A DNA stretch of 64,000 bases from Phaeobacter inhibens DSM 16374 (GTDB taxonomy: Bacteria; Pseudomonadota; Alphaproteobacteria; Rhodobacterales; Rhodobacteraceae), in the NCBI RefSeq assembly GCF_000473105.1, contig NZ_KI421498.1, forward strand, positions 1,612,001 to 1,676,000. Reading direction: 5' to 3'. This document shows positions 14,456 through 50,137 of the stretch, one piece after another. The notes under the pieces are model-generated. The model did no database searches. It saw only the letters and a program-made list of their open reading frames with translations, and had not been told where the DNA came from. A program made the position numbers and the translations under genes. Numbering within the stretch: the first letter of the stretch is position 1; each line of letters begins with the position of its first letter.

Positions 14456-15001
14456 TTACCCCCGTGCCGCGACAGCTTCCATCGCTGTTTTCAGATCATC
14501 CACAAGTGTCTCCGCCATGGACCGGAACACCATGATCTGCAGGGTCTTTGGCCCCAGCCGCGTGATGGACGCCGCCATGTGTTTCAACTCACAGCGAGCT
14601 GTGTGGCCGCGTTTGAACACACTTGGCCGCAGATCCACCGGGCACAGCCGCGCCAGCACCGCATCTCCCTGCGCTCCCTCCAGCCGGACCACCGCCCAAC
14701 CATCGCTCTGATCGGTAAGCGCAGCATGCTCTGCCAGCGCAGGATCCGGGCGGGTCCCGCTCAGCAGTGCCATCTCGCGGCCAAACCAGATAATCCGCGC
14801 GCCCGCTTTGGCATGGCTGCGGTTCGGCGCCGGCCAGCGCAGCCCGTGGGCTGCCTCCAGGGCAGCCGACAGCGCAGCCACCTGCCCCGCATAGGGCGCC
14901 AGCGTCGTCATCCCTTCACCCGGCGCTTCCGTCAAAGACAGCTCCCCGACCTCCAGGGGCAACAATCCGGCACAGGGGGTTTTTACGCGTAACTCAACCA
15001 C
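14456..15001 (-). CDS. soxG: sarcosine oxidase gamma subunit
   Basis: About 181 residues, the last gene of soxBDAG. The small gamma subunit pairs with the GcvT-like region of the alpha subunit in heterotetrameric sarcosine oxidase. Visible family features are the mid-protein IIWFGREMALLSG, DQSDGWAVVRLEG and the C-terminal LCPVDLRPSVFKRGHTAR. The frame is open to 15043. The GTG at 15001 overlaps the soxA stop by 8 bp and gives the expected N-terminus; a GTG at 15007 is an alternative. Translational coupling to soxA is likely. Confidence 0.88.
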   Translation of the reverse strand: MVELRVKTPCAGLLPLEVGELSLTEAPGEGMTTLAPYAGQVAALSAALEAAHGLRWPAPNRSHAKAGARIIWFGREMALLSGTRPDPALAEHAALTDQSDGWAVVRLEGAQGDAVLARLCPVDLRPSVFKRGHTARCELKHMAASITRLGPKTLQIMVFRSMAETLVDDLKTAMEAVAARG

Positions 15002-17915
15002 GGGCACGCTCCCCTTCCGGGTCAAAGAACACTGGCTCCACAATCTCGCAAAGCGTATCCAGACCCGCGGTGTGATCTACCATACGAATGGGATCACCAA
15101 TCCTGTCAGGGCCAGCCTTAATCAGCGCCAGACCAATCATATGACCCAGCGTCGGCGCATAGCAGACGGAGGTCACATAGCCCTGATCATGCGCCCGCGT
15201 GACCGGATCCTCCGGATCAAAGAGATGCGCCCCGGCGGTCAGCTGCTGCACCGCGCCGGTAGGTTTGATCCCCACCAGCCGCATTCGGGTCTTGTCGACC
15301 AACCCCTCGCGCAATGCCATATCGCGACCGACGCAGGATTTGCCAGAACGCAAAATCCCGCCGAACCCCAGATCATGCAGCGTGGCCGTGCCGTTGATCT
15401 CCGCATGGGTCAGAAACCCTTTCTCAATCCGCAAGACGTTCAGGGCTTCCAACCCGTAGGCCCCACCGCCCAGCCCCTCGGCCCGGCGCAGCAACTCGCC
15501 AAACAGGCTCTCACCGTAGCGCGCCGGCACCGCCAGTTCATAAGCTTCCTCACCGGAGAACGAGATCCGAAACAGCCGCGCGGAAACCTCGCCCAGCGCA
15601 ATCTCACCACAGGCCATGAACGGCCAATCAGCGGGTTCAAAGGCCGTGCCCAACAGCTCCTGCAACAAGGTGCGCGCCTTAGGGCCTGCGACGGAAAACT
15701 GCGCCCATTGCTCGGTGACCGAATTGATCCGCACATCCCAATCCGGGTGCAACGCCTGCGTCACGAACTCCAGATGCGCCATCACCTGCCCGGCAGCAGC
15801 GGTTGTTGTGGTCATCACATAGTGGTTCGGCGCAAGACAGGCCGTTGTGCCGTCATCCATGACAAAGCCATCTTCGCGCAGCATCAAACCATAGCGCACC
15901 CGACCGGGTTTCAGCTTGGCAAAACCATTGGCATAAACAAAGTCCAGCAGCCGCGCCGCATCCGGCCCCTGAATATCAATCTTGCCGAGGGTGGAGACAT
16001 CCGCGACCCCCACCGCATTGCGCACATACCCAACCTCGCGGTCACAGGACTGCCGCCAATGGGTCTCGCCGGGTTTGGGAAAATAGCTGGCCCGATACCA
16101 AAGCCCAACCTCCATCATATGGGCGCCCATATCCTCCGCCAGCCGATGCGACGTCAGCAACCGCCGGGGCGCAAAGCCCTGATCCTCTGCCCCTGCCCCC
16201 ATCACGCCAATCGGCACTGGCACATAGGGCGGGCGAAAGGTGGTGGTGCCCGTCTCAGGGATACTGCGCCCCGTGGCCTCCGCCAGAACCGCCAGCGCCA
16301 CCACATTTGAGCTTTTTCCCTGATCCGTGGCCATACCTTGGGTCGTGTAGCGTTTCATATGCTCAACCGAGCGGAAGTTCTCGCGCCCAGCCTGACAGAT
16401 GTCCTTGACCGTGACATCATTCTGAAAATCAACCCAGGCCCGCCCCCGCCCCGGCACCGACCACAGCGGGGAAATGCGATATTCCGCCTGCTCGGCCTCA
16501 GGCAGCTCTGCCGCAACAGCCCGCTTGCCCAATGCCTCTAATGCTCGCGCGCCGGCTTCTGCCCCATCTTGCAAGACCGCCATGGTGGTGAAGCGCCCGC
16601 GACAGGCCCCCACGGCCTCCAGCCCAGGAACCGCACCGTCCTGCGGCACAAAACACGCAAGGTCCCGCCGCCAGCGGGGCCGTCCGTTTAGATGGCAGGT
16701 CAGATGCAACGTCGGGTTCCAACCACCGGACATGGCCAGACAGTCCGTCTGCAACTTCTCCTCTCCCGATACCGATCGCAGGGTCAGGCTCTCCAACCGT
16801 TGACGGCCAGAGGCATTGCAGACCTGCGCCCCCCGGATCACCCGAAAAGCATCACTCTGAGGTGCGTCATGGCGGCTGTCGATCACCGCTGCAACATGCA
16901 CCCCGGCCGCAACAAGATCCCGCGCGGTGCGGTGGGCATCATCGTTGTTGGCAAACACGGTCACCCGTTCCCCCGGCGCCACCCCCCAACGATTGAGGTA
17001 ACTGCGCACAGCCCCGGCCATCATGATCCCCGGCCGGTCATTATTGGCAAAGGCCACGGGTCGCTCCAATGCGCCTGCGGCAAGGATCGCGCGTTTTGCA
17101 ACCAGCCGCCAGAAACAAGCGCGCGCGGGTTTGCCGCTACCGGCAGGTACTGTCTCAAGCGCGCCGTAGGTGCCCTGATCGTAAACACCTGTCACGCTCG
17201 TGCGCGCCATACGGCGCACATTGTCCAGACTGTCCAGCTCTGCCAGCGTGGCCGCAACCCACTGCTGCGCCGGGTTTCCATTGATGATCTCTTGTTCGCT
17301 GAGCAATCGACCGCCGGGCTGACTATCCTCGTCGCACAGGATCACATCCGCCCCGCCCCGCGCCGCCGTAAGTGCCGCCATCAGCCCCGCAGGTCCGGCG
17401 CCGATCACCAAGAGATCGCAGAACCCATAGGCCTTTTCATAGATCCCATCATCCGGCGCGCCAGACAATGCGCCCAGCCCCGCCGCACGGCGAATGACCG
17501 GCTCATAAATCTTTTCCCAGAACGCTGCAGGCCACATAAAGGTCTTGTAGTAAAACCCCGCGCCCAGAAACGGTGCGGCCAGATCGTTCACCGCCATCAC
17601 GTCAAAACCAACCGACGGCCAGCAATTCTGACTGCGCGCCGCCAGTCCTTCATAAAGCGGCAGCGTGGTGGCCCTCAGATTGGGCTCCTGTGCTGCCCCC
17701 TCTCCCACGGTGACCAACGCGTTGGGTTCTTCACTGCCAGCAGTCAGGATGCCGCGTGGGCGGTGATATTTGAACGACCGCCCCACCAGATGAATGTCAT
17801 TGGCCAGCAGGGCTGCCGCCAGCGGCTCCCCTTCCCGCCCGGTCAGGGCGCGCCCATTGAAGGAAAAGCCGACCTCGCGCGTATCGGACCTCCCCGCCCA
17901 TCCTGCGATCCGCAT
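14994..17915 (-). CDS. soxA: sarcosine oxidase alpha subunit
   Basis: This 973-residue alpha subunit combines an N-terminal ferredoxin-like segment (FNGRALTGREGEPLAAALL), an NAD-binding flavoprotein domain with VIGAGPAGLMAALTAARGG around residue 170, and a C-terminal GcvT-type folate-binding domain (about 590-960) with SFSGEEAYELAVPARYG. The enzyme oxidatively demethylates sarcosine to glycine, giving 5,10-methylene-tetrahydrofolate and H2O2. The open frame is longer (to 18023), but the ATG at 17915 shares bases with the soxD stop (TGATG) and is preceded by AGGAGG. Confidence 0.95.
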   Translation of the reverse strand: MRIAGWAGRSDTREVGFSFNGRALTGREGEPLAAALLANDIHLVGRSFKYHRPRGILTAGSEEPNALVTVGEGAAQEPNLRATTLPLYEGLAARSQNCWPSVGFDVMAVNDLAAPFLGAGFYYKTFMWPAAFWEKIYEPVIRRAAGLGALSGAPDDGIYEKAYGFCDLLVIGAGPAGLMAALTAARGGADVILCDEDSQPGGRLLSEQEIINGNPAQQWVAATLAELDSLDNVRRMARTSVTGVYDQGTYGALETVPAGSGKPARACFWRLVAKRAILAAGALERPVAFANNDRPGIMMAGAVRSYLNRWGVAPGERVTVFANNDDAHRTARDLVAAGVHVAAVIDSRHDAPQSDAFRVIRGAQVCNASGRQRLESLTLRSVSGEEKLQTDCLAMSGGWNPTLHLTCHLNGRPRWRRDLACFVPQDGAVPGLEAVGACRGRFTTMAVLQDGAEAGARALEALGKRAVAAELPEAEQAEYRISPLWSVPGRGRAWVDFQNDVTVKDICQAGRENFRSVEHMKRYTTQGMATDQGKSSNVVALAVLAEATGRSIPETGTTTFRPPYVPVPIGVMGAGAEDQGFAPRRLLTSHRLAEDMGAHMMEVGLWYRASYFPKPGETHWRQSCDREVGYVRNAVGVADVSTLGKIDIQGPDAARLLDFVYANGFAKLKPGRVRYGLMLREDGFVMDDGTTACLAPNHYVMTTTTAAAGQVMAHLEFVTQALHPDWDVRINSVTEQWAQFSVAGPKARTLLQELLGTAFEPADWPFMACGEIALGEVSARLFRISFSGEEAYELAVPARYGESLFGELLRRAEGLGGGAYGLEALNVLRIEKGFLTHAEINGTATLHDLGFGGILRSGKSCVGRDMALREGLVDKTRMRLVGIKPTGAVQQLTAGAHLFDPEDPVTRAHDQGYVTSVCYAPTLGHMIGLALIKAGPDRIGDPIRMVDHTAGLDTLCEIVEPVFFDPEGERARG

Positions 17916-18256: not shown

Positions 18257-19510
18257 TCAATGCAGATTATGCTGCGCACCGGTCGCCTCCTCATCCATTA
18301 GGCCATGGCCAGTTTCGAACCGCTCCAGCCGGAATGCCGCCGCGGCCTCATGTGGACGGTCCGTGGCGATCAGATGGGCATAACACTGCCCAGAGGCAGG
18401 CGTTGCCTTGAATCCGCCATAGCACCAGCCCGCATTGAGATAGAGCCCCTCAATCGATGTCCGGTCTATGATGGGCGAGCCATCCGGTGTCATATCCATA
18501 ATGCCGCCCCAGCTGCGCAACAGCCGTGCCTTGCCGATGGCGGGCAGCATCGCCATACAGGCCTCCATTGTGTGCTCCACCATCGGCAGGTTCCCCCGCG
18601 CCGCATAAGAAGTGTAGAGATCAAGGTAGCTGCCAAAGACCAAACCGCCCTTGTCCGACTGGCTGATATACAAATGCCCCTCCGCAAAGGTGATGACATG
18701 ATCAATGATCGGCTTCAGCCCTTCTGAAACAAACGCCTGCAAAACATGGCTCTCAATCGGCAGGGTCAGACCAGCCATGGCCGCCACCTGACTGGACCGC
18801 CCGGCGGCGGCCATAGCGACCTTGCCCGCGCGGATCAGACCACGGGAGGTCTCAACCCCGATGACCTTGCCACCCTCAGTCCGAATGCCGGTCACCTCAC
18901 AGTTCTGCAGGATATCAACACCGCGCTGATCCGCCCCCCGTGCAAACCCCCAGGCCACCGCATCATGGCGCGCCGTGCCCGCCCGGCGCTGTAGTAGCGC
19001 CCCCTGGATAGGAAACCGGTTGTTGTCATAGTTCAGCAGCGGCGCCATCTCGCGCAGTTGGTCGCGGGATAGAATCTCGGCATCATCGCCCTGATTGATG
19101 ATCGCATTCGCCCGCCGCACGGCGCTGTCACGCTGCGCATCATTGTGAAAAACGTTCAAAATCCCGCGCTGCGACATCATCGCGTTGTAATTCAGATCCT
19201 GTTCCAGCCCCTCCCACAGCTTCAGGGAATGGGAGTAGAACTCAGAGTTGCCCGGCAAATAATAATTCGCCCGAACGATGGTGGTGTTGCGCCCCACATT
19301 GCCGCCGCCGATATAGCCACGCTCCAGCACGGCGATATTGGTCATGCCGTGATCCCTGGCTAAATAATAGGCGGTCGCCAGCCCATGACCACCGCCGCCG
19401 ATGATCACCGCATCATATTCGGGTTTTGGATCCGGGTCGCGCCAATGGCCCTGCCAGCCCCGATTGCCCGTCAGCCCTTCGCGCAACACACGCCAGCCAG
19501 AAAATCGCAT
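18257..19510 (-). CDS. soxB: sarcosine oxidase beta subunit
   Basis: This 417-residue flavoprotein has an FAD-binding VIIGGGGHGLATAYYLA motif near residue 35 and the RAGTARHDAVAWGFARGAD stretch near 172-190. In that stretch a histidine carries covalent FMN in characterised heterotetrameric enzymes. GWCYGGFKATPASG near the C-terminus completes the DAO fold. It heads the soxBDAG operon. The 148-165 bp upstream region carries a dyad element also found upstream of the mttB-like gene (see 19651-19675). Confidence 0.96.
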   Translation of the reverse strand: MRFSGWRVLREGLTGNRGWQGHWRDPDPKPEYDAVIIGGGGHGLATAYYLARDHGMTNIAVLERGYIGGGNVGRNTTIVRANYYLPGNSEFYSHSLKLWEGLEQDLNYNAMMSQRGILNVFHNDAQRDSAVRRANAIINQGDDAEILSRDQLREMAPLLNYDNNRFPIQGALLQRRAGTARHDAVAWGFARGADQRGVDILQNCEVTGIRTEGGKVIGVETSRGLIRAGKVAMAAAGRSSQVAAMAGLTLPIESHVLQAFVSEGLKPIIDHVITFAEGHLYISQSDKGGLVFGSYLDLYTSYAARGNLPMVEHTMEACMAMLPAIGKARLLRSWGGIMDMTPDGSPIIDRTSIEGLYLNAGWCYGGFKATPASGQCYAHLIATDRPHEAAAAFRLERFETGHGLMDEEATGAQHNLH

Positions 19511-19650: not shown

Positions 19651-19675
19651 GCATATTCAGGACACATATGTCTAG
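19651..19675. promoter_or_regulatory. candidate operator/promoter element upstream of soxB, shared with the mttB-like gene
   Basis: On the plus strand GCATATT (19651-19657) is followed by the imperfect dyad CAGGACACATATGTCTAG (19658-19675). The same arrangement, GCATATT then a closely similar 18-bp dyad, occurs at 37932-37957 at almost the same distance upstream of another minus-strand gene. Read towards soxB, the flank becomes AATATGC and could supply a TATGCT -10 box, with the dyad where a -35-region activator would sit. The regulator is unknown. Confidence 0.6.
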
Positions 19676-19747: not shown

Positions 19748-19779
19748 GAAAAAAGAGGCGGGACATGCCGCCTCTTTTC
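19748..19779 (-). terminator. rho-independent terminator of glutamate dehydrogenase
   Basis: GAGGCGG (19755-19761) pairs with CCGCCTC (19768-19774). On the minus strand the stem is followed by six T; on the plus strand it is followed by CTTTTCTT. It lies about 40 bp beyond the gdh stop. The rest of 19511-19814 holds the soxB promoter region and no gene. Confidence 0.88.
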
Positions 19780-19814
19780 TTATGTATGACCCAAAAGGGC
19801 TGCCTTGAATAAGG

Positions 19815-21245
19815 TCAAAGCCCCTTGGCACGGTAACTCTTGGCAACCTTGTCAATGGACACCAGATAAGCGGCTGTACGCAGATCAGTCACGTCATTGC
19901 GGCCGTGCCAGACCTCCCGCATCGACTGATAAGCCGTGCGCATGGTGTCATCCAGACCGGAGCGCACCAGCTCCAGCTCATCAGCGCCTCGCAGGTAGCG
20001 TTCGGTGAACTTGGGGTTCAGCGTCCAGGTCTTGCCCAGGCTTTCAGACAGGGCCTCCAGCTCATCCACAACCAGCTGATGACGCGCCTCTTCCTGGCGG
20101 CGTTGCATCCGGCCAAAGCGGATGTGGCTGAGGTTTTTGACCCACTCAAAGTAGGAGACCGTCACACCGCCCGCGTTGGCGTACATGTCAGGAATGATTA
20201 CAGTCCCTTTGTCGCGCAGGATCTCATCCGCGCCCGCAGTGACGGGGCCATTTGCCGCCTCAATGATCAGGCGCGCTTTGATGTTGGCTGCATTGGTGAG
20301 GTTGATCACCCCCTCCAGAGCCGCCGGGATCAGGATGTCGCAATCCTCTTCCAACAGCAGCGCGCCATTTTCAACATACCGCGCATCCGGATAGCCCGTC
20401 ACGCCGCCGTTGTTGGCGATCCACTGGAACACCGCTTCGATATCGAGACCATTTTCGTCGATCAGACCACCGTCGCGCTCGATCACAGCGGTGATCTTGG
20501 CGCCGTCTTCCGACATCAGGAATTTGGCCGCGTGGTAGCCCACATTGCCGAGGCCCTGAACGATCACCCGTTTGCCGTCCAGTTTGCCGTCCATATTGGC
20601 AGCCGCCACATCCTCCGGATTGCGGAAGAATTCGCGCAGAGCATACTGCACGCCGCGACCCGTCGCCTCGACCCGGCCAGCGATACCGCCCGCGTTCAGC
20701 GGTTTGCCGGTGACACAGGCCTTGGCGTTGATATCCGTGGTGTTCATCCGCGCATATTGGTCTGCGATCCAGGCCATCTCGCGTTCGCCAGTGCCCATAT
20801 CGGGGGCTGGAACGTTCTGAGAGGGGTTGATCAGGTCGCGCTTGGCCAGTTCATAGGCAAAACGGCGTGTGATCAGCTCCAGCTCGTGCTCTTCGTACTG
20901 GCGCGGATCAATGCACAGCCCGCCCTTGGAGCCACCAAAAGGCGCCTCAACCAGCGCACATTTATAGGTCATCAGCGCCGCCAGCGCCTCAACCTCATCC
21001 TGATTCACGCCCATCGCATAGCGGATGCCGCCCTTCACAGGCTCCATATGTTCGGAATGCACCGAACGATACCCGGTGAAGGTCTGAATCCCCCCACGCA
21101 GGCGCACGCCAAAGCGCACGGTATAGGTCGCGTTGCAAACCCTGATCTTCTCTTCCAGACCCGGTGGCAGGTCCATCAGGGACACCGCCCTGTTGAACAT
21201 CAGGTCCACACTCTGGCGAAAACTGGGTTCTGTTGCACTGCTCAT
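19815..21245 (-). CDS. gdhA: glutamate dehydrogenase (Glu/Leu/Phe/Val dehydrogenase family)
   Basis: The 476 residues show the substrate-domain motif VEAPFGGSKGG (active-site lysine), PAPDMGTGEREM, then the Rossmann motif IVQGLGNVGYHAAKFL and EAANGPVTAGADEIL. The enzyme interconverts glutamate and 2-oxoglutarate plus ammonium; coenzyme preference cannot be read with certainty. The open frame extends to 21377, but MSSATEPSF from the ATG at 21245, behind a GGAG site, is the likely start. The upstream 18-bp perfect palindrome falls inside the longer frame, which also argues for the shorter form. It lies just upstream of the sox operon on the same strand, separated from it by a terminator. Confidence 0.93.
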   Translation of the reverse strand: MSSATEPSFRQSVDLMFNRAVSLMDLPPGLEEKIRVCNATYTVRFGVRLRGGIQTFTGYRSVHSEHMEPVKGGIRYAMGVNQDEVEALAALMTYKCALVEAPFGGSKGGLCIDPRQYEEHELELITRRFAYELAKRDLINPSQNVPAPDMGTGEREMAWIADQYARMNTTDINAKACVTGKPLNAGGIAGRVEATGRGVQYALREFFRNPEDVAAANMDGKLDGKRVIVQGLGNVGYHAAKFLMSEDGAKITAVIERDGGLIDENGLDIEAVFQWIANNGGVTGYPDARYVENGALLLEEDCDILIPAALEGVINLTNAANIKARLIIEAANGPVTAGADEILRDKGTVIIPDMYANAGGVTVSYFEWVKNLSHIRFGRMQRRQEEARHQLVVDELEALSESLGKTWTLNPKFTERYLRGADELELVRSGLDDTMRTAYQSMREVWHGRNDVTDLRTAAYLVSIDKVAKSYRAKGL

Positions 21246-32651: not shown

Positions 32652-33656
32652 TTAGGCTTCATCCTGCTCATCCATACCAGGCTGATAGAAGAAGTGGCGC
32701 GCCCGGCCTGCGTTTTTTGCAGCATAAAGTGCCACATCCGCCTGATGGAGCAACGTTGCCGCGTCCAGCCCTTGCGAAAAGGCCGCAGAAAGTGCTGTCC
32801 CTGCGCTCGCCGAAATCTTGCAGGTCTTATCACCGAAGGGGATTGGTTCCTCGATGCTGGAAATCAGCCGACGGGCAATACCTGAGAGCTGTATTCGGTC
32901 AATAAGACCCTCAAAGATAAGAACAAACTCATCCCCACCAACCCTTGCGACCGTATCATTCTGACGGGTGCATTGCACCATCAGCTTGGCTACCCGTTGC
33001 AGGACGGTATCCCCCGCCGCATGGCCAAGCGTATCATTGACCTCTTTGAAGAAATCGAGATCCACATGCATCAGGGAGAAATCTCGGCCCGAGGAGATCA
33101 GCCGATTCAGGATGTGATCCATCGCGCGGCGGTTCTTCACACCTGTCAGCGTATCTGTAAACGCCTGTTCCTCTGCGGCGATTTTTGCCCCCTGTAGGCG
33201 TAGATTAAGCTGGCGTGACGCCTCCATAGCGGCGGATTTCGCCTCAACAAGATAGAGCATCTCAATGGTCAGATCCGTCGGGGAAAAATCAGCACTTGTA
33301 AGATCATAGTCGCGCACCGCTTCAAGCACTGAAATGCCGAAAGATAGGTTGATGAACCCGCCCTTACCCTCCGGGAAGGGGGCAAGCACCCCTTTCAGAC
33401 CGGTTTGCGGAGCATCGCGGAAATTGAGATGCAGTTTTGCACCGGCTGTCTTGATCAGGTCCTCAGTCGACCGGACCCGACGCGGCCGCGCGAGATCAAA
33501 GATCCGAAAGAACCGGCTGCCGATCCATTCGGTATCCGGGCGCAGTTTGCGCAATGTCGGCCCAACCCCGGTAATCCGCCCTTCATGGTTAATAACCACA
33601 TGCATCGGACAGATTTCATTGGCGATGGAGGAGATTTCCCGCATGCTCAGCATCAT
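32652..33656 (-). CDS. HNOBA-GGDEF diguanylate cyclase
   Basis: The 334 residues start with a heme-NO-binding-associated (HNOBA) type domain (about 15-135, with MHVVINHEGRITGVGPTLRK). A helical signalling linker follows (about 136-165), then a GGDEF domain (about 165-320). The active site is GGDEF at 240-244, with an RxxD inhibitory site (RQND, 231-234) five residues before it, so product-inhibited c-di-GMP synthesis is expected. It overlaps the H-NOX-like gene by ATGA, so the two are made together. In related bacteria H-NOX proteins modulate such cyclases in response to nitric oxide. Confidence 0.9.
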   Translation of the reverse strand: MMLSMREISSIANEICPMHVVINHEGRITGVGPTLRKLRPDTEWIGSRFFRIFDLARPRRVRSTEDLIKTAGAKLHLNFRDAPQTGLKGVLAPFPEGKGGFINLSFGISVLEAVRDYDLTSADFSPTDLTIEMLYLVEAKSAAMEASRQLNLRLQGAKIAAEEQAFTDTLTGVKNRRAMDHILNRLISSGRDFSLMHVDLDFFKEVNDTLGHAAGDTVLQRVAKLMVQCTRQNDTVARVGGDEFVLIFEGLIDRIQLSGIARRLISSIEEPIPFGDKTCKISASAGTALSAAFSQGLDAATLLHQADVALYAAKNAGRARHFFYQPGMDEQDEA

Positions 33657-34240
33657 AGTGAATGCGCCCCCAGATCGAAGGCGCGGCCTTCGGCAAATTC
33701 AGTTTCAACCAGGGTGATTGCTATCACCTCTGCGTTGTCCTGCGTGCCTGAATGATCAAGGAAAACCAGATCGCCGTAGTCATCCGCCATCGCCCTCAGG
33801 ACCCCCATCAATACATGGGCGTACCCCGGCAGACCGGGCTGGCAATGCAGTTCAAATTGCCCCGGCGCCTGTTCAATCAACTCCAGCCCCGGCAGGTTCA
33901 GATCTGCGACAGCCAGCCGTGCGCGATCCGGCAAATCATCCAGTGAATGCAGGAATTCCACATAGTTGACCCCACCAAAACGCAGCAATCGGCGCAGCGC
34001 CTCCAGCTGCGGGTTCGACACCAGAAACGTGCCCATATCTTCCAGCATTTCCGGCAGCGGGCGTTTCAGAATATCCTCTGCAGTCCGCAACATGATCTGG
34101 GATTGCTCATCCGTATAGGTAAGCATGGCTTCGAACTCGCTAAAGCCGAGCTCCGCCGTATCCATGATTGCCTGCCAGCTGTCCTTCCCGAAGGTGGTGC
34201 TGACAAACGCCTGGAATGCCCTATTGATCAGACCGTGCAT
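33653..34240 (-). CDS. H-NOX-like protein lacking the canonical proximal histidine
   Basis: This 195-residue protein begins MHGLINRAF, the standard H-NOX start, and follows the family through LRFGGVNYVEFLHSLDDL and DLNLPGLEL. Aligned by eye with soluble guanylate cyclase beta (LDALHDHL), the heme-ligating His falls on Pro104 (DDLPDRARL). The usual Tyr-x-Ser-x-Arg propionate motif is also not evident (region FELHCQPGLPG). A nearby His in EFLHSL is five residues earlier. The protein may bind no heme or use another ligand. The ATG at 34240 has AAGGGG before it; the frame also opens at a GTG one codon earlier. Confidence 0.85.
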   Translation of the reverse strand: MHGLINRAFQAFVSTTFGKDSWQAIMDTAELGFSEFEAMLTYTDEQSQIMLRTAEDILKRPLPEMLEDMGTFLVSNPQLEALRRLLRFGGVNYVEFLHSLDDLPDRARLAVADLNLPGLELIEQAPGQFELHCQPGLPGYAHVLMGVLRAMADDYGDLVFLDHSGTQDNAEVIAITLVETEFAEGRAFDLGAHSL

Positions 34241-34334: not shown

Positions 34335-36125
34335 TCAGGGCCTTACCAGAACCTCTAGCCCCCCCAGCTTCAGCGTATTCTGCCGTGCCGGAGATATCTC
34401 GAAACGGCCAGCCTGCGCTGCCGCCAGCGCAGCCTCGACCTGCTCTGTTGTCCATTCTTCCACTGGTGTCCCGCGCTCCAGAATCACACGGCCTAGCATA
34501 TCGGCACCGTCCGGGCCAAACCGCAGGGCCAGGCTCTCCAGCTGCGCCCCGTCACGACCTTCTCTGAGGAACAGCAACGCGAAGTCCGCCGTCTCATCGG
34601 AGGTTGCACCCAGCGCGCCGCGAATAAGCACACATCCCGCGTTGCCATCCGGCAGCAGCTGCTTGCACCCGCGAATCCAGCGCAGCAGCTGATACCGCTT
34701 CAGGCCCCTGAAATCATCCGCTGTTACCAAGGCTCCGGCGGGTCGTACGGGCAGCAGTTCAATCAGCTCCTTGCGCTGATCATCGGTAACATCCACCACG
34801 TCCGTCGTCATTTGCCAACGGGTCGCGGCGCTGCGCGCCAACTGCAGACGCTTGGAGAGGTCCTTGTCGCCGGTCTCTTCCGCATGGGCATCCAACCGCG
34901 CCAGAGCGTCAAGCCCGCCCTGCCCCCAGTCATGAGCCATCTGCCACAGGGGCAGCTCTTCTGCTTTGGTCTCACCTGCCAGCACCCGCGCCACCTGGTT
35001 GTTGCCCGCAATGCGCCCCGCATCCACCAGCGGAGTCAGGGCCAGCGCCAGGGTGGCACCTGTCATCAGCGCCAGGCCGACAATGGCGCGGCGCAACAGA
35101 TCCGGCCAATGCGCCCCGCCAATGGCGGCGCAGCCGGCATAGACCAACCCATGCAGCAGTAACATCATCGCAAACAACAGCGCATAGATGCGATCCGGGG
35201 TCCAACCATATTGCCAGACCCGCATCAACACCGCCCAGGCCGCCAGACCAGTGACGAGCATCAGACCAATCGCCAACAGCCGAGCCGCCATGCCGTTTGC
35301 GCCCTTTGGTTGCTCCTGCCGGGTCAGCGCCACGCAGACCAGTGTCATCATTACCGCTGACATCGCCATCAGCGTTGCAGCTGAGGACAGATGACCAAAG
35401 GCGCTGGACAACCCCTGCAGCGGAATCGCCGCCAAAAACAGGCCGACCACCAGAAGAACCGGGATCAGCAGCAGGCTGAGTAATCGAAACAAAAGATGCG
35501 GCGCGCCACCGCCCCCCAGCTCCTGCACCACCGCCAGGCCCAGACCGAAAACCGCGCCGCTCAGCGTCAGCGCCAGCCAGTCCACCTCGGCGATGTCTTC
35601 AAGAATAGTGATATTGACCAGATCCAGCAGGGCATTGGACAACAAGCCAAGGATCCAGAAGACCGCGACAAATCCGACCCCGCAGGCCAGGCGAAACGCA
35701 ATCCCCCAACTGGCCGCAGACAGCGCCGCAAACCGGGTCCAGCGATCGGGCACTGACAGCCGTAGCAACACAAAGGGACAGGCCATCGCGCCAAGCGTCA
35801 GCGCCATCAGCACCAACACCTCATTCTGCAACAGATCGGTCGCCGCCGGGTAGCGCAACGCCGCCAGAAGCATCAGCGCGGTCATCGGCACCGCAACCCA
35901 AAGCGCCCCCTGCAGCGCACGCAGCAGCGACAGCGGCCCGATCATGGCCAGTGATGCGCCGCAAAAACTGGACAGAAACGCAAACATCGCCAGAAACACG
36001 CTCTCAGAGAGACCAGTCTGATCCCAGTCCCGCGCCAGCAGCCACAGCGCGAATCCACTGCCCGCACCCAAAGCCACCATTGGCAAACGGGCGCGCAAAG
36101 CGGTCGCAGTATCCGGGTCAGTCAT
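34335..36125 (-). CDS. DUF4153 multi-pass membrane protein
   Basis: The 596 residues show about eleven hydrophobic segments in the first 380 positions, then a soluble C-terminal part rich in charged residues (about 390-596) containing DDQRKELIELLPVRPAG and GCVLIRGALGATSDE. The overall plan fits DUF4153 proteins, whose role is unknown. The frame extends to 36212, but MTDPDTATALRARLP at 36125 is the probable start. It lies 93 bp downstream of the mttB-like gene on the same strand. Confidence 0.72.
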   Translation of the reverse strand: MTDPDTATALRARLPMVALGAGSGFALWLLARDWDQTGLSESVFLAMFAFLSSFCGASLAMIGPLSLLRALQGALWVAVPMTALMLLAALRYPAATDLLQNEVLVLMALTLGAMACPFVLLRLSVPDRWTRFAALSAASWGIAFRLACGVGFVAVFWILGLLSNALLDLVNITILEDIAEVDWLALTLSGAVFGLGLAVVQELGGGGAPHLLFRLLSLLLIPVLLVVGLFLAAIPLQGLSSAFGHLSSAATLMAMSAVMMTLVCVALTRQEQPKGANGMAARLLAIGLMLVTGLAAWAVLMRVWQYGWTPDRIYALLFAMMLLLHGLVYAGCAAIGGAHWPDLLRRAIVGLALMTGATLALALTPLVDAGRIAGNNQVARVLAGETKAEELPLWQMAHDWGQGGLDALARLDAHAEETGDKDLSKRLQLARSAATRWQMTTDVVDVTDDQRKELIELLPVRPAGALVTADDFRGLKRYQLLRWIRGCKQLLPDGNAGCVLIRGALGATSDETADFALLFLREGRDGAQLESLALRFGPDGADMLGRVILERGTPVEEWTTEQVEAALAAAQAGRFEISPARQNTLKLGGLEVLVRP

Positions 36126-36218: not shown

Positions 36219-37778
36219 TTAGAAATCAGTTGGCGCGCCTCCCTCGGATTTCCGGCGTGCGACGAAGTCCGCCAGTTCCTCGTGCCGGGCCACATCCAGC
36301 GGTGGCGCTTCAAATCGGGCAATGATCTCCTTGAACATGTTATGTGCCCGTTCCGGCGTCCAGACCGCGCCTGCCGCCTCCCAGGCCTCATAGTTGCGCC
36401 AATCACTGAGGTAGGGCTGATAAAACGCGGTGCTATAGCGATCCTGCGTGTGCTGAATACCAAAGAAATGGCCGTCGTTGCCGACCTCGCGAATGGCTTC
36501 CAGCGCGATATCCTCAGGGCCGGTGCCGATGACTTCCGGCTGCATGTAGCGCTGGATCTGCTGGAGAATTTCGCAATCCATGATGAACTTCTCGGGGCTG
36601 GCAATCAGCCCGCCTTCCAGCCATCCCGCCGCGTGGTAGACCATATTGGTGCCCGACTGCACTGCCGCCCAGAGCGAATTGGACGTCTCCCACATCGCCT
36701 GCCCGTCGGGCACATTGGCCGCACAGACACCGGACGACCGCATCGGCAGGCCATAATAGCGCGCCATCTGCCCGGTCATCTGGGTCGAGCGCATGTATTC
36801 CGGTGTGCCAAAGGCCGGAGCACCGGATTTCATATCCACATTGGAGGTGAAGGTGCCGATCACACAGGGCGTGCCGGGGCGTACATATTGAAAAAGCGCA
36901 ATCGCCGAGAGCGACTCGGCGATGGATTGCGCCACAGCCCCGGACATGGTCACCGGTGCCATCGCCCCCGCCAGCGTGAAGGGCGTGACAACGATCGCCT
37001 GCCCCCGCCGTGCCAGCCGCAGGCAACCGTCGATCATCGGCTGGTCGTGTTTCAGCGGCGAGGTGGAGTTGATGTTGGTATACATATGCGGACGGGCCTC
37101 GAACTCCTCATGAGTCAGCCCTCCCGCGATCCGCACCATCTCCATCACATCCTCGACCCGCTCCTTGCCCAGCGAATAAGCATGCATCGCCTTGTCCGTA
37201 AGCGTCAGCTTGTCATAGAGCACATCCAGATGGCGGACCGAGGCATGAATATCCACCGGCTCCACCGGATAGCCCCCGGCAAAATGGATGCAGTTGAAAT
37301 ATTGGGTCAGCTTCAGCAGGTTCTGGCACTGCTCACGTGTGCCTGCGACCTTGGCATTCAGCGACATATCCCAGTAGTTTGGCGGCGAAGACACATTGCC
37401 GAATAGGATATGATCGCCCCCCACCGGCAGGGTTCGATCGGGATTGCGCGGCGTGATGGTGAATTCCGATGGCGCCTTGGCGACCATCTCCATCACGAAC
37501 TCCCGGTCCAGATGAACCCGGTCACCCACGACCTTGCAGCCCGCCTCCTTGAAGATCTCAAGCGCCTCATCGTTAAGGAACACGATGCCGATCTCTTCGA
37601 GGATCCGCATCGCCCCATCGTGAATGGCCGCCACGCCCTCAGGGCCAAGCGGCTCAATCGGGCGATCAATGTTGCGTGGCACCGACCATGGCATCTGCTC
37701 AATCACCGCATCCCCGCGCCGGGCCGCCGCACCGGCGCGTCCGCCACCACGTTTTCGGGTTCGTGTCTCGGTCGTCAT
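36219..37778 (-). CDS. MttB-family (trimethylamine/glycine betaine) methyltransferase, non-pyrrolysine type
   Basis: The 519 residues match the MttB superfamily (COG5598), with HDQPMIDGCLRLARRGQ, VTPFTLAGAMAPVTMSGA and GNDGHFFGIQHTQDRY. The frame has no in-frame amber codon, so it lacks pyrrolysine, as in MtgB glycine betaine methyltransferases. Those move a methyl group from a quaternary amine to a corrinoid protein. No corrinoid protein gene is nearby, so the methyl acceptor is unknown. The N-terminus has a basic, disordered leader (residues 1-22). A dyad element 162-179 bp upstream is shared with soxB. Confidence 0.88.
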   Translation of the reverse strand: MTTETRTRKRGGGRAGAAARRGDAVIEQMPWSVPRNIDRPIEPLGPEGVAAIHDGAMRILEEIGIVFLNDEALEIFKEAGCKVVGDRVHLDREFVMEMVAKAPSEFTITPRNPDRTLPVGGDHILFGNVSSPPNYWDMSLNAKVAGTREQCQNLLKLTQYFNCIHFAGGYPVEPVDIHASVRHLDVLYDKLTLTDKAMHAYSLGKERVEDVMEMVRIAGGLTHEEFEARPHMYTNINSTSPLKHDQPMIDGCLRLARRGQAIVVTPFTLAGAMAPVTMSGAVAQSIAESLSAIALFQYVRPGTPCVIGTFTSNVDMKSGAPAFGTPEYMRSTQMTGQMARYYGLPMRSSGVCAANVPDGQAMWETSNSLWAAVQSGTNMVYHAAGWLEGGLIASPEKFIMDCEILQQIQRYMQPEVIGTGPEDIALEAIREVGNDGHFFGIQHTQDRYSTAFYQPYLSDWRNYEAWEAAGAVWTPERAHNMFKEIIARFEAPPLDVARHEELADFVARRKSEGGAPTDF

Positions 37779-37931: not shown

Positions 37932-37957
37932 GCATATTTCTGGGCATATGTGTCCAG
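37932..37957. promoter_or_regulatory. candidate operator/promoter element upstream of the mttB-like gene, shared with soxB
   Basis: On the plus strand GCATATTT (37932-37939) is followed by CTGGGCATATGTGTCCAG (37940-37957), an 18-bp dyad with only two mismatched pairs. It aligns with 19651-19675 in the same orientation: GCATATT is identical and 13 of 18 dyad bases match. Towards the gene the flank reads AATATGC and could be part of a -10 box. No regulator gene is adjacent. Confidence 0.6.
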
Positions 37958-38000: not shown

Positions 38001-38690
38001 TCAGCGATCCAGCCAGCCGGGGATATGGCCGATATCCGGCAGAACCACATCCGCATGGGCTTCCAGTTCCGCTGCCCCGGCCAGTCCGGTCAGCACCCCG
38101 ATCCGATGCATCCCCGCCGCCGATCCAGCCTCCAGATCATGCAGGCTGTCGCCCACCATGGCGGTGCGCTCCGGTGCGATACCGGTGGCGGCACAGAAGG
38201 CCAGCAACGGGTCGGCGTCCGGCTTTGCCCCATGGCCGCTATCGAACCCGGCAACAAAGGCAAAGCGATCCAGTACACCGCTGCGACTGAGCTGGGATTT
38301 TGCAGACAGTTCCGCATCATTGGTCATCACCCCCAGCACCTTGCCCCGCGCTAGAAGATCATCAAGGAAGGCCGCCAGCGGCACGGCCTCGGCCAGGTCC
38401 GCCTCACCGGCGCTTTCGGCCATATATTGCTCCAGCTGATCCAGATCCATCTGTGGCACATGCGGCGCCAACGCCTCCGCCACCTGCCGGTTGGTGGAGG
38501 CGATCACCAGACTGCTGGGCAGGATCTTTCCCGTCTCCAGGTCAAAATCTATCGCCGCCGCCATCGCCTGCAACCGATCCGTATCTCCCTCCGACAGCAG
38601 ATCCAGCATCCGCCCGGTCCAACGGTTCCAGGTCTCGGCAAAGTCAAACAGCGTTCCGTCCTTGTCGAACAGCAGGGCATCAACGGGCAT
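38001..38690 (-). CDS. HAD-family hydrolase (phosphoglycolate phosphatase-like)
   Basis: The 229 residues carry the four HAD motifs: LFDKDGTLFD at 6-15 with the nucleophile Asp, MTNDAEL near 128 (Thr), the lysine in GAKPDADPLLAF near 160, and MVGDSLHDLEAG near 180. The cap is helical, as in Gph-type phosphatases, but the substrate cannot be assigned. The frame is open to 38744; the ATG at 38690 gives the normal start. The 237 bp upstream (38691-38927) hold nothing I recognise. Confidence 0.88.
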   Translation of the reverse strand: MPVDALLFDKDGTLFDFAETWNRWTGRMLDLLSEGDTDRLQAMAAAIDFDLETGKILPSSLVIASTNRQVAEALAPHVPQMDLDQLEQYMAESAGEADLAEAVPLAAFLDDLLARGKVLGVMTNDAELSAKSQLSRSGVLDRFAFVAGFDSGHGAKPDADPLLAFCAATGIAPERTAMVGDSLHDLEAGSAAGMHRIGVLTGLAGAAELEAHADVVLPDIGHIPGWLDR

Positions 38691-46801: not shown

Positions 46802-47665
46802 ATGATTGATATTATGGACAAACGCTTGCGCGCCGAGCAGTTTCGCCTACGACTCAACCGGGCGCTCCGCGACAGCGGTCTCAGCCAAAGCGCGCTCGCC
46901 CGCGCCATCGGGGTGGATCGCTCGACCATATCGCAGCTTCTGACCGATGCCGGGGCGCGGCTGCCCAATGCCCATGTGGTCGGTGCCTGTGCAGGCGCAC
47001 TTGGGGTTTCTGCCGACTGGCTCCTCAGCCTGTCGGATCGCCCGGAAAACGCCGCAGATCTGGTCGCAGCCAGCCTGTCGATGGCCAAGGCTCCGCGCGC
47101 CTTGGTGGATGAACGCATCTTTGAATGGCACCAAGAGGCGCAGGGGTACAAGATCCGCCATGTCCCTGCCGCCCTGCCCGACATGCTCAAGACGCGGGCG
47201 CTGCTGGAATGGGAATATGCCCCGCATCTGGGGCGCACGGCCGATCAGGCCATCGGCGCCTCTGAGGATCGACTGACATGGATGCGGCAATCGGCCTCCG
47301 ACTATGAAATCGCCATGCCAATCTATGAGTTGGACAGCTTTGCCCATGCGGTTGGATATTATGAAGGCCTGCCGCTGGACATCCGGCTACAGCAGCTCGA
47401 CCATTTCGAACAGCTCTGCACCCAGCTTTATCCGCGCCTGCGGATCTATCTCTTTGATGCCAAGCGGCTCTATTCAGCGCCACTCACCGTCTTTGGCCCG
47501 CTGCTGTGCGTGTTTTACGCAGGCAGCCATTATCTCGCCTTCCGCGACAAGGAGCGGGTCGAGACCTTTAGCAGCCATTTCGACGATCTGGTGCGCGAGG
47601 CCGATATCACCGCGCGGCAATTGCCGGGGCGGCTCAGGGCGCTCAGGGCGGCGATCAGCAGTTAA
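46802..47665 (+). CDS. XRE-family transcriptional regulator
   Basis: The 287 residues have an HTH_3 domain (about 10-75; DSGLSQSALARAIGVDRSTI) and a long C-terminal part (about 80-287) without a named fold, containing IRHVPAALPDMLKT, YEIAMPIYELDSFAHAVGYY and YLAFRDKERVETF. It is divergent from the DUF2061-desaturase-EamA operon, a likely target. An ATG at 46814 (MDKRLRAEQF) is an alternative start and would leave more room for the operator. Confidence 0.88.
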   Translation: MIDIMDKRLRAEQFRLRLNRALRDSGLSQSALARAIGVDRSTISQLLTDAGARLPNAHVVGACAGALGVSADWLLSLSDRPENAADLVAASLSMAKAPRALVDERIFEWHQEAQGYKIRHVPAALPDMLKTRALLEWEYAPHLGRTADQAIGASEDRLTWMRQSASDYEIAMPIYELDSFAHAVGYYEGLPLDIRLQQLDHFEQLCTQLYPRLRIYLFDAKRLYSAPLTVFGPLLCVFYAGSHYLAFRDKERVETFSSHFDDLVREADITARQLPGRLRALRAAISS

Positions 47666-47741: not shown

Positions 47742-48500
47742 TCACAGCTTCGGGTCCGGGTTCTCCGTATGGCCATCCACTGCGATCACCTGCCCTGACA
47801 CCAGTCGCGCCGCATCGGACCCCAGAAACACCGCCATATTGGCAATATCCTGTGCTTCGACAAAGGACCGCATCGAGGTCCCAGAGGCATAGCCCTCATA
47901 GATCTGATCGCGGGTCATGCCCTTGGCCGCTGCCTCGCGCTCCAGCACGCCCTCCATCCGCGGGCCCTCGACTGCACCGGGACAGATCACATTGGCCCGG
48001 ATGCCAAAAGGGCCCAGCTCCATCGCCAAGGTCTTCATCAGCCCGATCACCGCCCATTTCGCCGAAGCATAAGGCGCCCGGTTGGGATAGCCGTACAGCC
48101 CAGCGGTCGAAGACGTCACGATGATCGACCCGGCCCTCGCTGCCTTCATCAAAGGAGCCGCATATTTCGCCGCCAGAAAGCAGCCCTCCAGGTTGACGCT
48201 GACGCATTTGCGCCAATCCTCCAGCGCGATATCCTCAATCAGCGCGGTCGGCCCGGCAACACCTGCATTGGCGCACAACACATCCAGCCCGCCCCAGACC
48301 TCAGCGATCTCTGCGAACAGCACCTTCACGCCCGCCTCATCGGTGGCATCCACCACCGTTGTCCGCCACCCCTCAGGCACGTCAGCCAGCGCCACCGCGC
48401 TGACATCCGTGACCCAGACCTGATGCCCGGCGGCGGCGAATCCTTCCGCCATCGCCCGGCCAATCCCTGACCCGCCGGCGGTCACCAGAACACGGCGCAT
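47742..48500 (-). CDS. short-chain dehydrogenase in the carnitine cluster
   Basis: The 252-residue SDR has TAGGSGIG at 7-14, an acidic residue after strand 2 (WVTDVSA) favouring NAD, LCANAGVAGP, the catalytic TSSTAGLYGYPNRAPYASAK with Ser, Tyr and Lys, and CPGAVEGPRM. It is last in the carnitine operon. It could be a D-carnitine dehydrogenase or a 3-hydroxybutyrate-type enzyme acting on the acetoacetate product; both are inference. A GTG at 48515 would overlap the upstream stop by GTGA and is an alternative start. Confidence 0.87.
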   Translation of the reverse strand: MRRVLVTAGGSGIGRAMAEGFAAAGHQVWVTDVSAVALADVPEGWRTTVVDATDEAGVKVLFAEIAEVWGGLDVLCANAGVAGPTALIEDIALEDWRKCVSVNLEGCFLAAKYAAPLMKAARAGSIIVTSSTAGLYGYPNRAPYASAKWAVIGLMKTLAMELGPFGIRANVICPGAVEGPRMEGVLEREAAAKGMTRDQIYEGYASGTSMRSFVEAQDIANMAVFLGSDAARLVSGQVIAVDGHTENPDPKL

Positions 48501-48511
48501 CCCTTCAGCGC

Positions 48512-49987
48512 TCACCGCGGCGCACCAATCGCGCGGCCCAGCCCCTCTGGCGCTGCCAGCGAAGCATGGGCTTCGGCCAGCTTCACCAGGTTGGCCTCGA
48601 TATGCGCCGCAGGCGGAGCCGAACGGCGGGTCGCAAGATCCACATGCAGCAGCATATGCTCCCCCGTCGCCAGTAGCCGCTCGCCGGAATACATCTCGTG
48701 CCACAAATGCATTTTCTTGCCCGCGCCCATGATCACCCGCGTCCGCACCTGGATCGGATCTCCCGCATGCACCTCGTCGATGTGGCGGATATGGGTCTCG
48801 GCGGTGAAATAGCTGCCGCCACTGGCGATATACTCCGCATCGCAGCCGATGATCATCATCAGCCTGTCGGTGGACTGGGCAAAGGCATCCAGATAGCGGC
48901 TCTCGGTCATATGGCCGTTGTAGTCGGTCCAATCCAGCGGCACGATCCGGCTCTGCGTCAGCACCGGCTGGCTCAGGTCCTCCAGACCGTCCATCGACCG
49001 CACCAACCCAGCCTCCCCCTCGCGCTCCGCGTCATGGGCGTTCTGCAGCGCGCCTGCACCCCAGTCATTGGCGCCCAGCGCCCGCATCATACCCACAAGG
49101 TTATCGTCGCGAATACGCTCCAACGCGCGGATCGAGTGATGGCCAGACTGGTCATCCGACTGGCCCGCAATCAGATCGACCAGCTCATCCGTGAACTCCG
49201 GCACATCCATCAGCTTGGTCCAGGGCCATTTCAGTGCCGGGCCAAACTGCGCCATGAAATGCTTCATGCCCGCTTCACCGCCCGCCACGCGGTAGGTTTC
49301 AAACAGGCCCATCTGCGCCCAGCGGATACCAAAACCATAGCGGATCGCATTGTCGATCTCCTCGGTGGTGGCAATGCCGTCCTTGACCAGCCACAGTGCC
49401 TCGCGCCAGACCGCCTCAAGGAAGCGGTCGGCCACATGCGCGTCGATCTCTTTCTTCAGATGCAGCGGGTACATCCCGATCTCGGTGACAATAGCCTTGG
49501 CGCTGTCGATCACGCTGGCAGTGTTGGCCTCGGTTGTGACCAGTTCCACCAGCGGCATCAGATAGACCGGGTTGAACGGATGCGCGACCAAGATCTGGGC
49601 GGCATTGCTGAACCCATCCTGCAATTGCGACGGTTTGTAACCAGAGGTGGACGAACCGATGACAGCATCCGCCGCGACATGTGCCTGCAACGCGCCGTAG
49701 ACTTTCTGTTTCAGTTCCAACCGCTCTGGCACGCTTTCCTGGATCCAGATCGCCCCGGCCACCGCCTCTTCAATGGTCGCATGGTAGCTGAGACCGCCCT
49801 CTGCAGGCAGCGCAACATTACCAAGGCCCGGCAAAGAGCGCCGCGCATTGGCAAGAACTTCGCCAATCTTGCGCTCTGCCTCCGGGTCCGGGTCGAACAC
49901 CCGCACATCCCAGCCATTCAGCAGGAACCGCGCGGCCCAGCCGCCGCCAATAACCCCGCCACCGATGATTGCTGCTGTTTTTGTCAT
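48512..49987 (-). CDS. cdh: L-carnitine dehydrogenase fused to a betainyl-CoA thioesterase-like hot-dog domain
   Basis: The 491 residues comprise a 3-hydroxyacyl-CoA-dehydrogenase-type half (1-320) with the NAD motif IIGGGVIGGGWAARFLLNGW, HPFNPVYLMPLVEL and the helical domain. A hot-dog thioesterase half (about 345-490) follows, with RIVPLDWTDYNGHMTESRYL. Such fusions oxidise L-carnitine to 3-dehydrocarnitine and release glycine betaine from betainyl-CoA. BKACE (50569-51486) supplies the step between. The start at 49987 (MTKTAAIIGG) was chosen; upstream in-frame codons precede the family N-terminus. Confidence 0.92.
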   Translation of the reverse strand: MTKTAAIIGGGVIGGGWAARFLLNGWDVRVFDPDPEAERKIGEVLANARRSLPGLGNVALPAEGGLSYHATIEEAVAGAIWIQESVPERLELKQKVYGALQAHVAADAVIGSSTSGYKPSQLQDGFSNAAQILVAHPFNPVYLMPLVELVTTEANTASVIDSAKAIVTEIGMYPLHLKKEIDAHVADRFLEAVWREALWLVKDGIATTEEIDNAIRYGFGIRWAQMGLFETYRVAGGEAGMKHFMAQFGPALKWPWTKLMDVPEFTDELVDLIAGQSDDQSGHHSIRALERIRDDNLVGMMRALGANDWGAGALQNAHDAEREGEAGLVRSMDGLEDLSQPVLTQSRIVPLDWTDYNGHMTESRYLDAFAQSTDRLMMIIGCDAEYIASGGSYFTAETHIRHIDEVHAGDPIQVRTRVIMGAGKKMHLWHEMYSGERLLATGEHMLLHVDLATRRSAPPAAHIEANLVKLAEAHASLAAPEGLGRAIGAPR

Positions 49988-50137
49988 GACATTGTTCTCC
50001 AAAAGACATTGGCCCATGAACCACACGAGCACGTCACGCGGGTTAAGCGCGCATGGCTTCCTTGCCCGCTGGCAAGCAGGCAGTTTTCATTTTCATTGAA
50101 TTCAAATGCGCTGGCAGCGCGAAACTTGTGATCTGCT

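Follow-up and report, generated by a model that had tools for sequence, protein, structure and literature searches.

Marine algae release betaine and DMSP, and roseobacters make use of both. Among the closest described regulatory systems are BetI1 and BetI2 of R. pomeroyi, choline-responsive TetR-family proteins with a betI box that reads ATTGACG*CGTCAAT in the available part of the source (PMC12442346). Trimethylamine catabolism in the same organism is regulated by TmaR (AraC) and TmoR (GntR), for which the accessible text names tmm, tdm, dmm, gmaS, and mgd as targets (PMC13390433), and the MetR motif is given in the excerpt at hand as ATGAA-N5-TTCAT (PMC4239095). The TetR regulons of FabR, FadP, LiuQ, PsrA, and RutR belong to other pathways in the sections available (PMC5343134). 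On the side of the enzymes, the accessible portion of a study of R. pomeroyi on betaine reports a rise of MtgB-type and of predicted DMG and sarcosine demethylation proteins (PMC12478193); its MtgBCDE system includes a PF06253 methyltransferase, like the mttB-like gene analysed here, but that portion describes no regulator for it, and our gene is equated with neither of the DSS-3 MtgB proteins, SPO2108 and SPO2134. In the open-licence literature, among the matches listed and within the accessible parts of those texts, none describes a TetR protein that controls mttB-like or DMGDH-like genes.

The window, i.e., the whole stretch of 64,000 nucleotides that was analysed (G000:C6:1612001-1676000 in the 4.13 Mb genome of Phaeobacter inhibens DSM 16374), contains two 18-bp dyads, one upstream of soxB and one upstream of an mttB-like gene. 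We consider it highly probable (roughly 0.85) that both are operators of one TetR-family regulator, predicted to be encoded by G000:C6:2128433-2129095. When compared to the known systems, such control would resemble BetI in combining TetR-family control of quaternary-amine catabolism, a palindromic operator, and a roseobacter host; it would differ in that the BetI box of the available text is spacer-less and serves bet genes, whereas here the motif is CTRGACA-N4-TGTCYAG, with a GACA-N4-TGTC core, and the targets are N-demethylation genes. BetI is set apart by operator and targets. Likewise, the coordinated control of methylated-amine genes in roseobacters would be common to TmaR, TmoR, and the candidate TetR, but the former two, in the portion of the source at hand, belong to other protein families and have other targets.

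The genes around the dyads were called with a simple purpose-written caller and are collected in Table 1. The PF06253 match of the mttB-like product spans residues 10-514 of 519, and its frame is open, without an in-frame stop or pyrrolysine codon, a combination that fits MtgB; we treat the gene as an MtgB-like candidate glycine betaine methyltransferase. Additionally, several other genes were observed in the window. Immediately downstream of the mttB-like gene, 34335-36125 (-) encodes a 596-aa protein without a Pfam match, and its 625-aa version matched nothing in Pfam or NCBIfam. At 32652-34240 (-), an H-NOX (HNOB) gene adjoins an HNOBA-GGDEF diguanylate cyclase gene, a pair that begins two genes past the mttB-like gene on the downstream side. 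A carnitine 3-dehydrogenase with a thioesterase-like domain (47742-50032, minus strand; NF005716, 808 bits) is accompanied by an SDR gene and an HTH_3-type regulator gene (46802-47665), forming a carnitine catabolism cluster.

Table 1. Features around the two dyads, with positions counted from the first nucleotide of the window.
Feature	Position	Strand	Basis
soxG-like gene, after soxA	14456-15001		TIGR01375 67.5 bits, below cut-off 144
soxA, sarcosine oxidase alpha subunit	14994..17915	-	TIGR01372 1242 bits
Small ORF between soxB and soxA	17915-18175		gene call
soxB, sarcosine oxidase beta subunit	18257..19510	-	NCBIfam TIGR01373 666 bits (cut-off 529)
GCATATT flank of dyad 1, probably not operator	19651..19657	+	2/7 genus genomes; 7 window copies
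Dyad 1, CAGGACACATATGTCTAG, predicted TetR operator of the soxB operon	19658..19675	.	genome scan; genus conservation 7/7 (G004 degenerate)
Terminator-like hairpin 3' of the glutamate dehydrogenase gene, between that gene and dyad 1	19749..19780	-	
Glutamate dehydrogenase gene, upstream of soxB	19815..21245	-	profile match (longer frame), gene call
MttB-superfamily methyltransferase, MtgB-like candidate	36219..37778	-	PF06253 740 bits; TIGR02369 271 bits, below cut-off 525
GCATATT beside dyad 2, separated from it by one base, probably incidental	37932..37938	+	genus alignment
Dyad 2, CTGGGCATATGTGTCCAG, predicted TetR operator of the mttB-like gene	37940..37957	.	genome scan; 7/7 genus; 25/80 named orthologues listed
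HAD-family phosphatase gene, upstream of dyad 2	38001..38690	-	profile match

The original prediction had described GCATATT followed by an 18-bp dyad at both places, in the same orientation and at nearly the same distance (about 150-180 bp) from the genes. Its positions and the identity of 13/18 bases between the dyads as read were reproduced, but the spacing between flank and dyad is unequal: dyad 1 follows its flank immediately, and an extra T at 37939 puts dyad 2 one base further away. The agreement rises to 15/18 with one dyad reversed, the two then having the 11-mer GGACACATATG in common, and the two are near-copies of one palindrome, CTGGACA-N4-TGTCCAG; since the element is a palindrome, the argument from orientation carries no weight. 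The distance from dyad to start codon is 147 bp for soxB (19510) and 161 bp for the mttB-like gene (37778). A scan of the window with the first pattern, CTGGACANATNTGTCCAG, found no 18-mer at up to three mismatches beyond the two dyads, and no sigma-70-like promoter was recognised in a hexamer scan around them. Regarding the heptamer, seven copies occur in the window on both strands, and in the genus alignments it is retained in 2/7 genomes on the soxB side and in 1/7 on the mttB side. Given this abundance and its poor retention across the genus, the flank is probably incidental; it was rejected as part of the element for lack of conservation, and the meaningful part is the palindrome.

Across the window's own genome, CTGGACANATNTGTCCAG matched 26 sites at up to three mismatches, compared to 15 for the reversed pattern, and seven compared to two at up to two mismatches. 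According to the gene calls, six of these seven sites were intergenic, as opposed to only 3 of the 19 with three mismatches, in DNA with an intergenic share of about 13% (stretches L016-L037), which upholds the earlier statement that chance is unlikely; the L020 site, counted as intergenic, shares a few bases with the called start of dddP. Besides the soxB and mttB-like sites of the window, the matches at up to two mismatches were located before the gene of an 805-aa protein with DAO, FAO_M, and GCV_T domains, labelled DMGDH-like on the basis of these domains (L018), at an OYE-type oxidoreductase gene (L019), in the gap between dddP and a gene encoding a haem-dependent N-demethylase-like (HODM) protein (L020), in the gap between an MscS-like gene and a gene without a Pfam match, presumably glycosyltransferase-like (L022), and inside a gene (L021). 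We take HODM/DUF3445 to be the dimethylamine monooxygenase family. The original prediction had named a genome-wide scan as its check, and with the motif CTRGACANNNNTGTCYAG (CTRGACA-N4-TGTCYAG), derived later from other genera, exactly four sites were found at up to one mismatch, those of soxB, the mttB-like gene, the DMGDH-like gene, and dddP/HODM, i.e., all four best genome sites adjoin N-demethylation genes. At up to two mismatches, this relaxed motif showed no numerical excess in the same genome (37 matches compared to 112 for the reversed pattern); its match counts, without excess over the control in seven further genomes either, were dropped as evidence, and the case is therefore carried by position and conservation, not number. 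A variant, CTGGGCA-N4-TGCCCAG, precedes an SBP_5 ABC transporter operon in G000, G002, and G005 (L029:7968-7985, L150:5880, L151:5699) and may belong either to the regulator considered here or to another; an AraC gene beside the L029 site was set aside as the regulator, as elsewhere the dyad accompanies TetR.

Within the genus, the dyad was present upstream of soxB, the mttB-like gene, and the DMGDH-like gene in 7/7 genomes at each locus, with 2-4, 1-3, and 1-2 mismatches to the first pattern, respectively; the soxB site of G004 is degenerate, with 4 mismatches. Relative to the window's genome, identity was 0.86 in the dyad and 0.57/0.67 in its 40-bp flanks at the soxB locus, 0.92 and 0.32/0.72 at the mttB locus, and 0.89 and 0.73/0.73 at the DMGDH locus, a contrast that is clear at the first two and modest at the third. 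Paired changes were also found, e.g., CTGTACAGAAATGTACAG at mttB of G002. At up to two mismatches, 47 sites were counted genus-wide, compared to 11 control matches, and 27 of them fall at five target types (soxB 4, mttB 6, DMGDH-like 7, OYE 5, dddP/HODM 5), the dyad standing before the OYE gene in 5/7 genomes and between dddP and the HODM-like gene in 5/7. The other 20 include five before or between other genes (MscS/glycosyltransferase-like, SBP_5 transporter), the remainder being intragenic, unrelated, or unread.

Regarding the protein that may recognise these sites, the OYE site of G002 has the OYE gene on one side and a divergently oriented TetR gene on the other; a LysR gene beside the OYE gene at L019 was set aside as the regulator, since G002 has a TetR adjoining the OYE site. 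All seven genus members carry a homologue of the G002 TetR, and the window's genome has a single one at E<=1e-15, the candidate gene named above (L186:9431-10096, 221 aa), which is some 0.45 Mb away from the window. The predicted protein bears the N-terminal helix-turn-helix of the TetR family (TetR_N, PF00440, E 8.9e-12), which was the only domain found at E<=1e-5, with neither an AraC- nor a GntR-type domain; it had no NCBIfam match at E<=1e-10, and its PDB matches to members of the TetR family mainly covered the DNA-binding part (best E 5.1e-07). In the genus, this gene adjoins none of the predicted targets and its own promoter has no dyad, so the link in the window's genome rests on homology. 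The OYE site itself is a hybrid, CCTGACA...TGTCCAG, in G000, G003, G004, and G006, which have no local TetR (L019:8007-8024), whereas in G002, with a local TetR, it reads CTTGACA...TGTCAAG (L145:3167-3184), a contrast that may reflect a possible operator takeover.

Homologues of the TetR were found in 113 of 248 genomes of the family, and 60 neighbourhoods, all outside the genus, were fetched. The gene order DMGDH - MttB - TetR occurred in 32 of the 60 (one with an intervening gene), an MttB-like gene lay within three genes of TetR in 43, and an FAD oxidoreductase gene or a soxB-like gene adjoined TetR in 10 and 9, respectively. In G010, which belongs to another genus, the homologue stands between a DMGDH-like gene and an FAD oxidoreductase gene, and CTGGACATCTGTGTCCAG lies 85 bp upstream. 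A dyad at up to two mismatches was present within 300 bp upstream of 37 of the 39 nearby DMGDH genes, a palindromic operator as far as sequence goes, and within the same distance of a nearby DMG/MTTB/OYE/SOXB/TETR gene in 43/60 neighbourhoods, mostly 30-110 bp before the first gene; the control, 60 shuffled palindromes on the 60 neighbourhoods, gave a mean of 0.48 and a maximum of 7. In 17/60 neighbourhoods, no dyad was found at up to two mismatches. When 5-bp-arm dyads were enumerated without any motif, TGGAC-N6-GTCCA and GGACA-N4-TGTCC ranked first, with 13 loci each. The same loci contain TGTCT-N0-AGACA in 10/60 cases, and at L254:11782-11813, L256:2562-2593, and L272:11527-11558 two overlapping dyads lie 14 bp apart with one half-site in common (TGTCTAGACA), possibly a paired operator.

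The loci with an exact GACA-N4-TGTC core (30 of 50 RSS-type, 9 of 10 H-type) were used to compare the recognition helix with its presumed operator. TetRs with the segment RSSFY(W/G)(Y/F)F had a purine before GACA in 59/60 half-sites, while the H-type paralogues, which have an H at that place and are often linked to OYE or MttB genes, had a pyrimidine in 16/18 (Fisher 1.5e-13, a value that ignores kinship and the pairing of half-sites); recognition helix and predicted operator thus covary. The recognition segment VSRSSFYWYF is identical in all seven genus TetRs of the main type, and the G/A in the genus sites is in keeping with it. The history of the locus can be followed in G221, G065, G060, G249, and G053, where relatives of the genus TetR's neighbours border the DMGDH-MttB-TetR group, with IOR on one side (3/5) and GST (5/5) and MT (4/5) on the other. 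In the window's genus, IOR - TetR - GST - MT stand in a row without DMGDH and MttB (the fragmentary contig of G001 gave no GST call); we take IOR to be an indolepyruvate ferredoxin oxidoreductase, and the GST and MT labels are likewise our assumption. A linked DMGDH/MttB pair in the window's own genome was rejected: in five stretches around its other DMGDH, MttB, and SoxB relatives, the best relatives of the linked pair of L268 were 38% and 37% identical. With the partner genes absent from the locus and relatives no closer than these in the stretches fetched, the genus TetR resembles an orphan, and its predicted sites are now found elsewhere.

Conservation upstream of orthologues, on which the original prediction also depended, was found throughout the genus (7/7), before 25 of 80 listed mttB orthologues, and in additional genomes at soxB (three genomes) and at the DMGDH-like gene (one genome), but not in most of the family. 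Among 69 soxB, mttB, and DMGDH orthologue or paralogue loci outside the genus (best matches in 34 genomes), only L096, the mttB paralogue of G010, had a dyad at up to three mismatches. The 80 closest named mttB orthologues, among the matches listed, showed a bimodal distribution, with 25 at up to two mismatches, none at three, and 55 at four or more; the bearers, among the matches listed, include Leisingera, Phaeobacter, Pseudophaeobacter, Roseobacter sp. MED193, and Parasedimentitalea, and orthologous promoters in more distant genera mostly lack the dyad. The TetR was detected at E<=1e-96 in 25/25 bearers compared to 13/25 examined non-bearers (of 55; Fisher 4.3e-5, ignoring kinship). A scan of seven further genomes, picked from outside the genus members listed, gave 21 sites at up to one mismatch, compared to 76 for the reversed control. 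Of the 16 that were read, seven were at soxB (3), mttB (1), the DMGDH-like gene (1), a TetR-linked DMGDH gene (1), and dddP/HODM (1), one was 402 bp upstream of a gene with a below-cut-off match to the GbcA model of glycine betaine monooxygenase, and eight had no link to such genes; the mttB match is not independent, since four of the seven genomes were picked for a dyad at mttB. In the family scan, the first pattern matched 22 of 248 genomes at up to one mismatch, and in four outside the genus (G010, G103, G253, G256) a match lay within 5 kb of the TetR gene; counts over genomes in this analysis are not independent events because the genomes are related.

These results also bear on other explanations. 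A chance resemblance of two palindromes around CATATG could draw on the 15 occurrences of CATATG in the window and on the relaxed-motif counts, which do not exceed their controls, but it is hardly credible and already contradicted by the dyads retained in 7/7 genus genomes amid less conserved flanks, by the bimodality before the 80 listed mttB orthologues, and by the linkage of the dyad to one TetR subfamily. It is very unlikely that the dyads are sites of a described regulator, i.e., BetI (TetR), TmaR (AraC), TmoR (GntR), or MetR: these do act on neighbouring pathways in roseobacters or Rhodobacterales, according to the available parts of the reports (PMC12442346, PMC13390433, PMC4239095), but in those same parts the BetI1 box has no 4-bp spacer, the MetR motif differs from the dyad, and TmaR and TmoR are of the AraC and GntR types, whereas the linked protein matches TetR_N and no NCBIfam model at the thresholds given above, and the enumeration around TetR genes yields the dyads' own palindrome. 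We also regard as unlikely that the TetR subfamily binds the dyads only beside DMGDH-MttB and that another protein took over the sites in the window's genus; the genus TetR is indeed unlinked from all targets and shows no visible autoregulation, but it is kept in 7/7 genus members with the same VSRSSFYWYF segment, and no second homologue of it was found in the window's own genome.

TetR repressors generally bind a palindromic operator as dimers and are released from it by a ligand. With both dyads read as operators of the candidate TetR, its dimer would bind the palindrome near the target promoters and repress the targets until an N-methylated substrate or its demethylation product binds the protein. 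The MttB-like protein, the DMGDH-like protein, and sarcosine oxidase would then be induced together for the stepwise demethylation of glycine betaine, these being the three expected steps from glycine betaine to glycine; here we infer the direction of control, the effector, and the substrates. The shared regulator of methylated-amine catabolism proposed at the outset gains support from the four best sites and the genus conservation, and it is very probably a TetR-family protein. More tentatively, and in our view somewhat less likely than not, a local TetR that had lost its DMGDH-MttB partners may have become a genome-wide regulator of methyl-group stripping in Phaeobacter-Leisingera. One regulon would then comprise the demethylation steps from glycine betaine to glycine, the OYE-type oxidoreductase, and the dddP/HODM pair (DMSP lyase), placing the use of nitrogen and sulphur osmolytes under one signal, and the OYE operator, formerly that of a sister TetR since lost, would have been taken over by a change in one half-site.

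In the accessible parts of the literature examined, the demethylation enzymes are being assigned and a regulator of their genes is not described; the best reading of our comparisons is that the predicted TetR regulator of N-demethylation genes would be an undescribed repressor. For direct testing in cultured roseobacters, the analysis offers a candidate regulator gene, a predicted 18-bp operator of exact sequence, and a rule for the recognition helix; it also suggests how the DNA code of a local repressor may persist when one set of targets is replaced by another.
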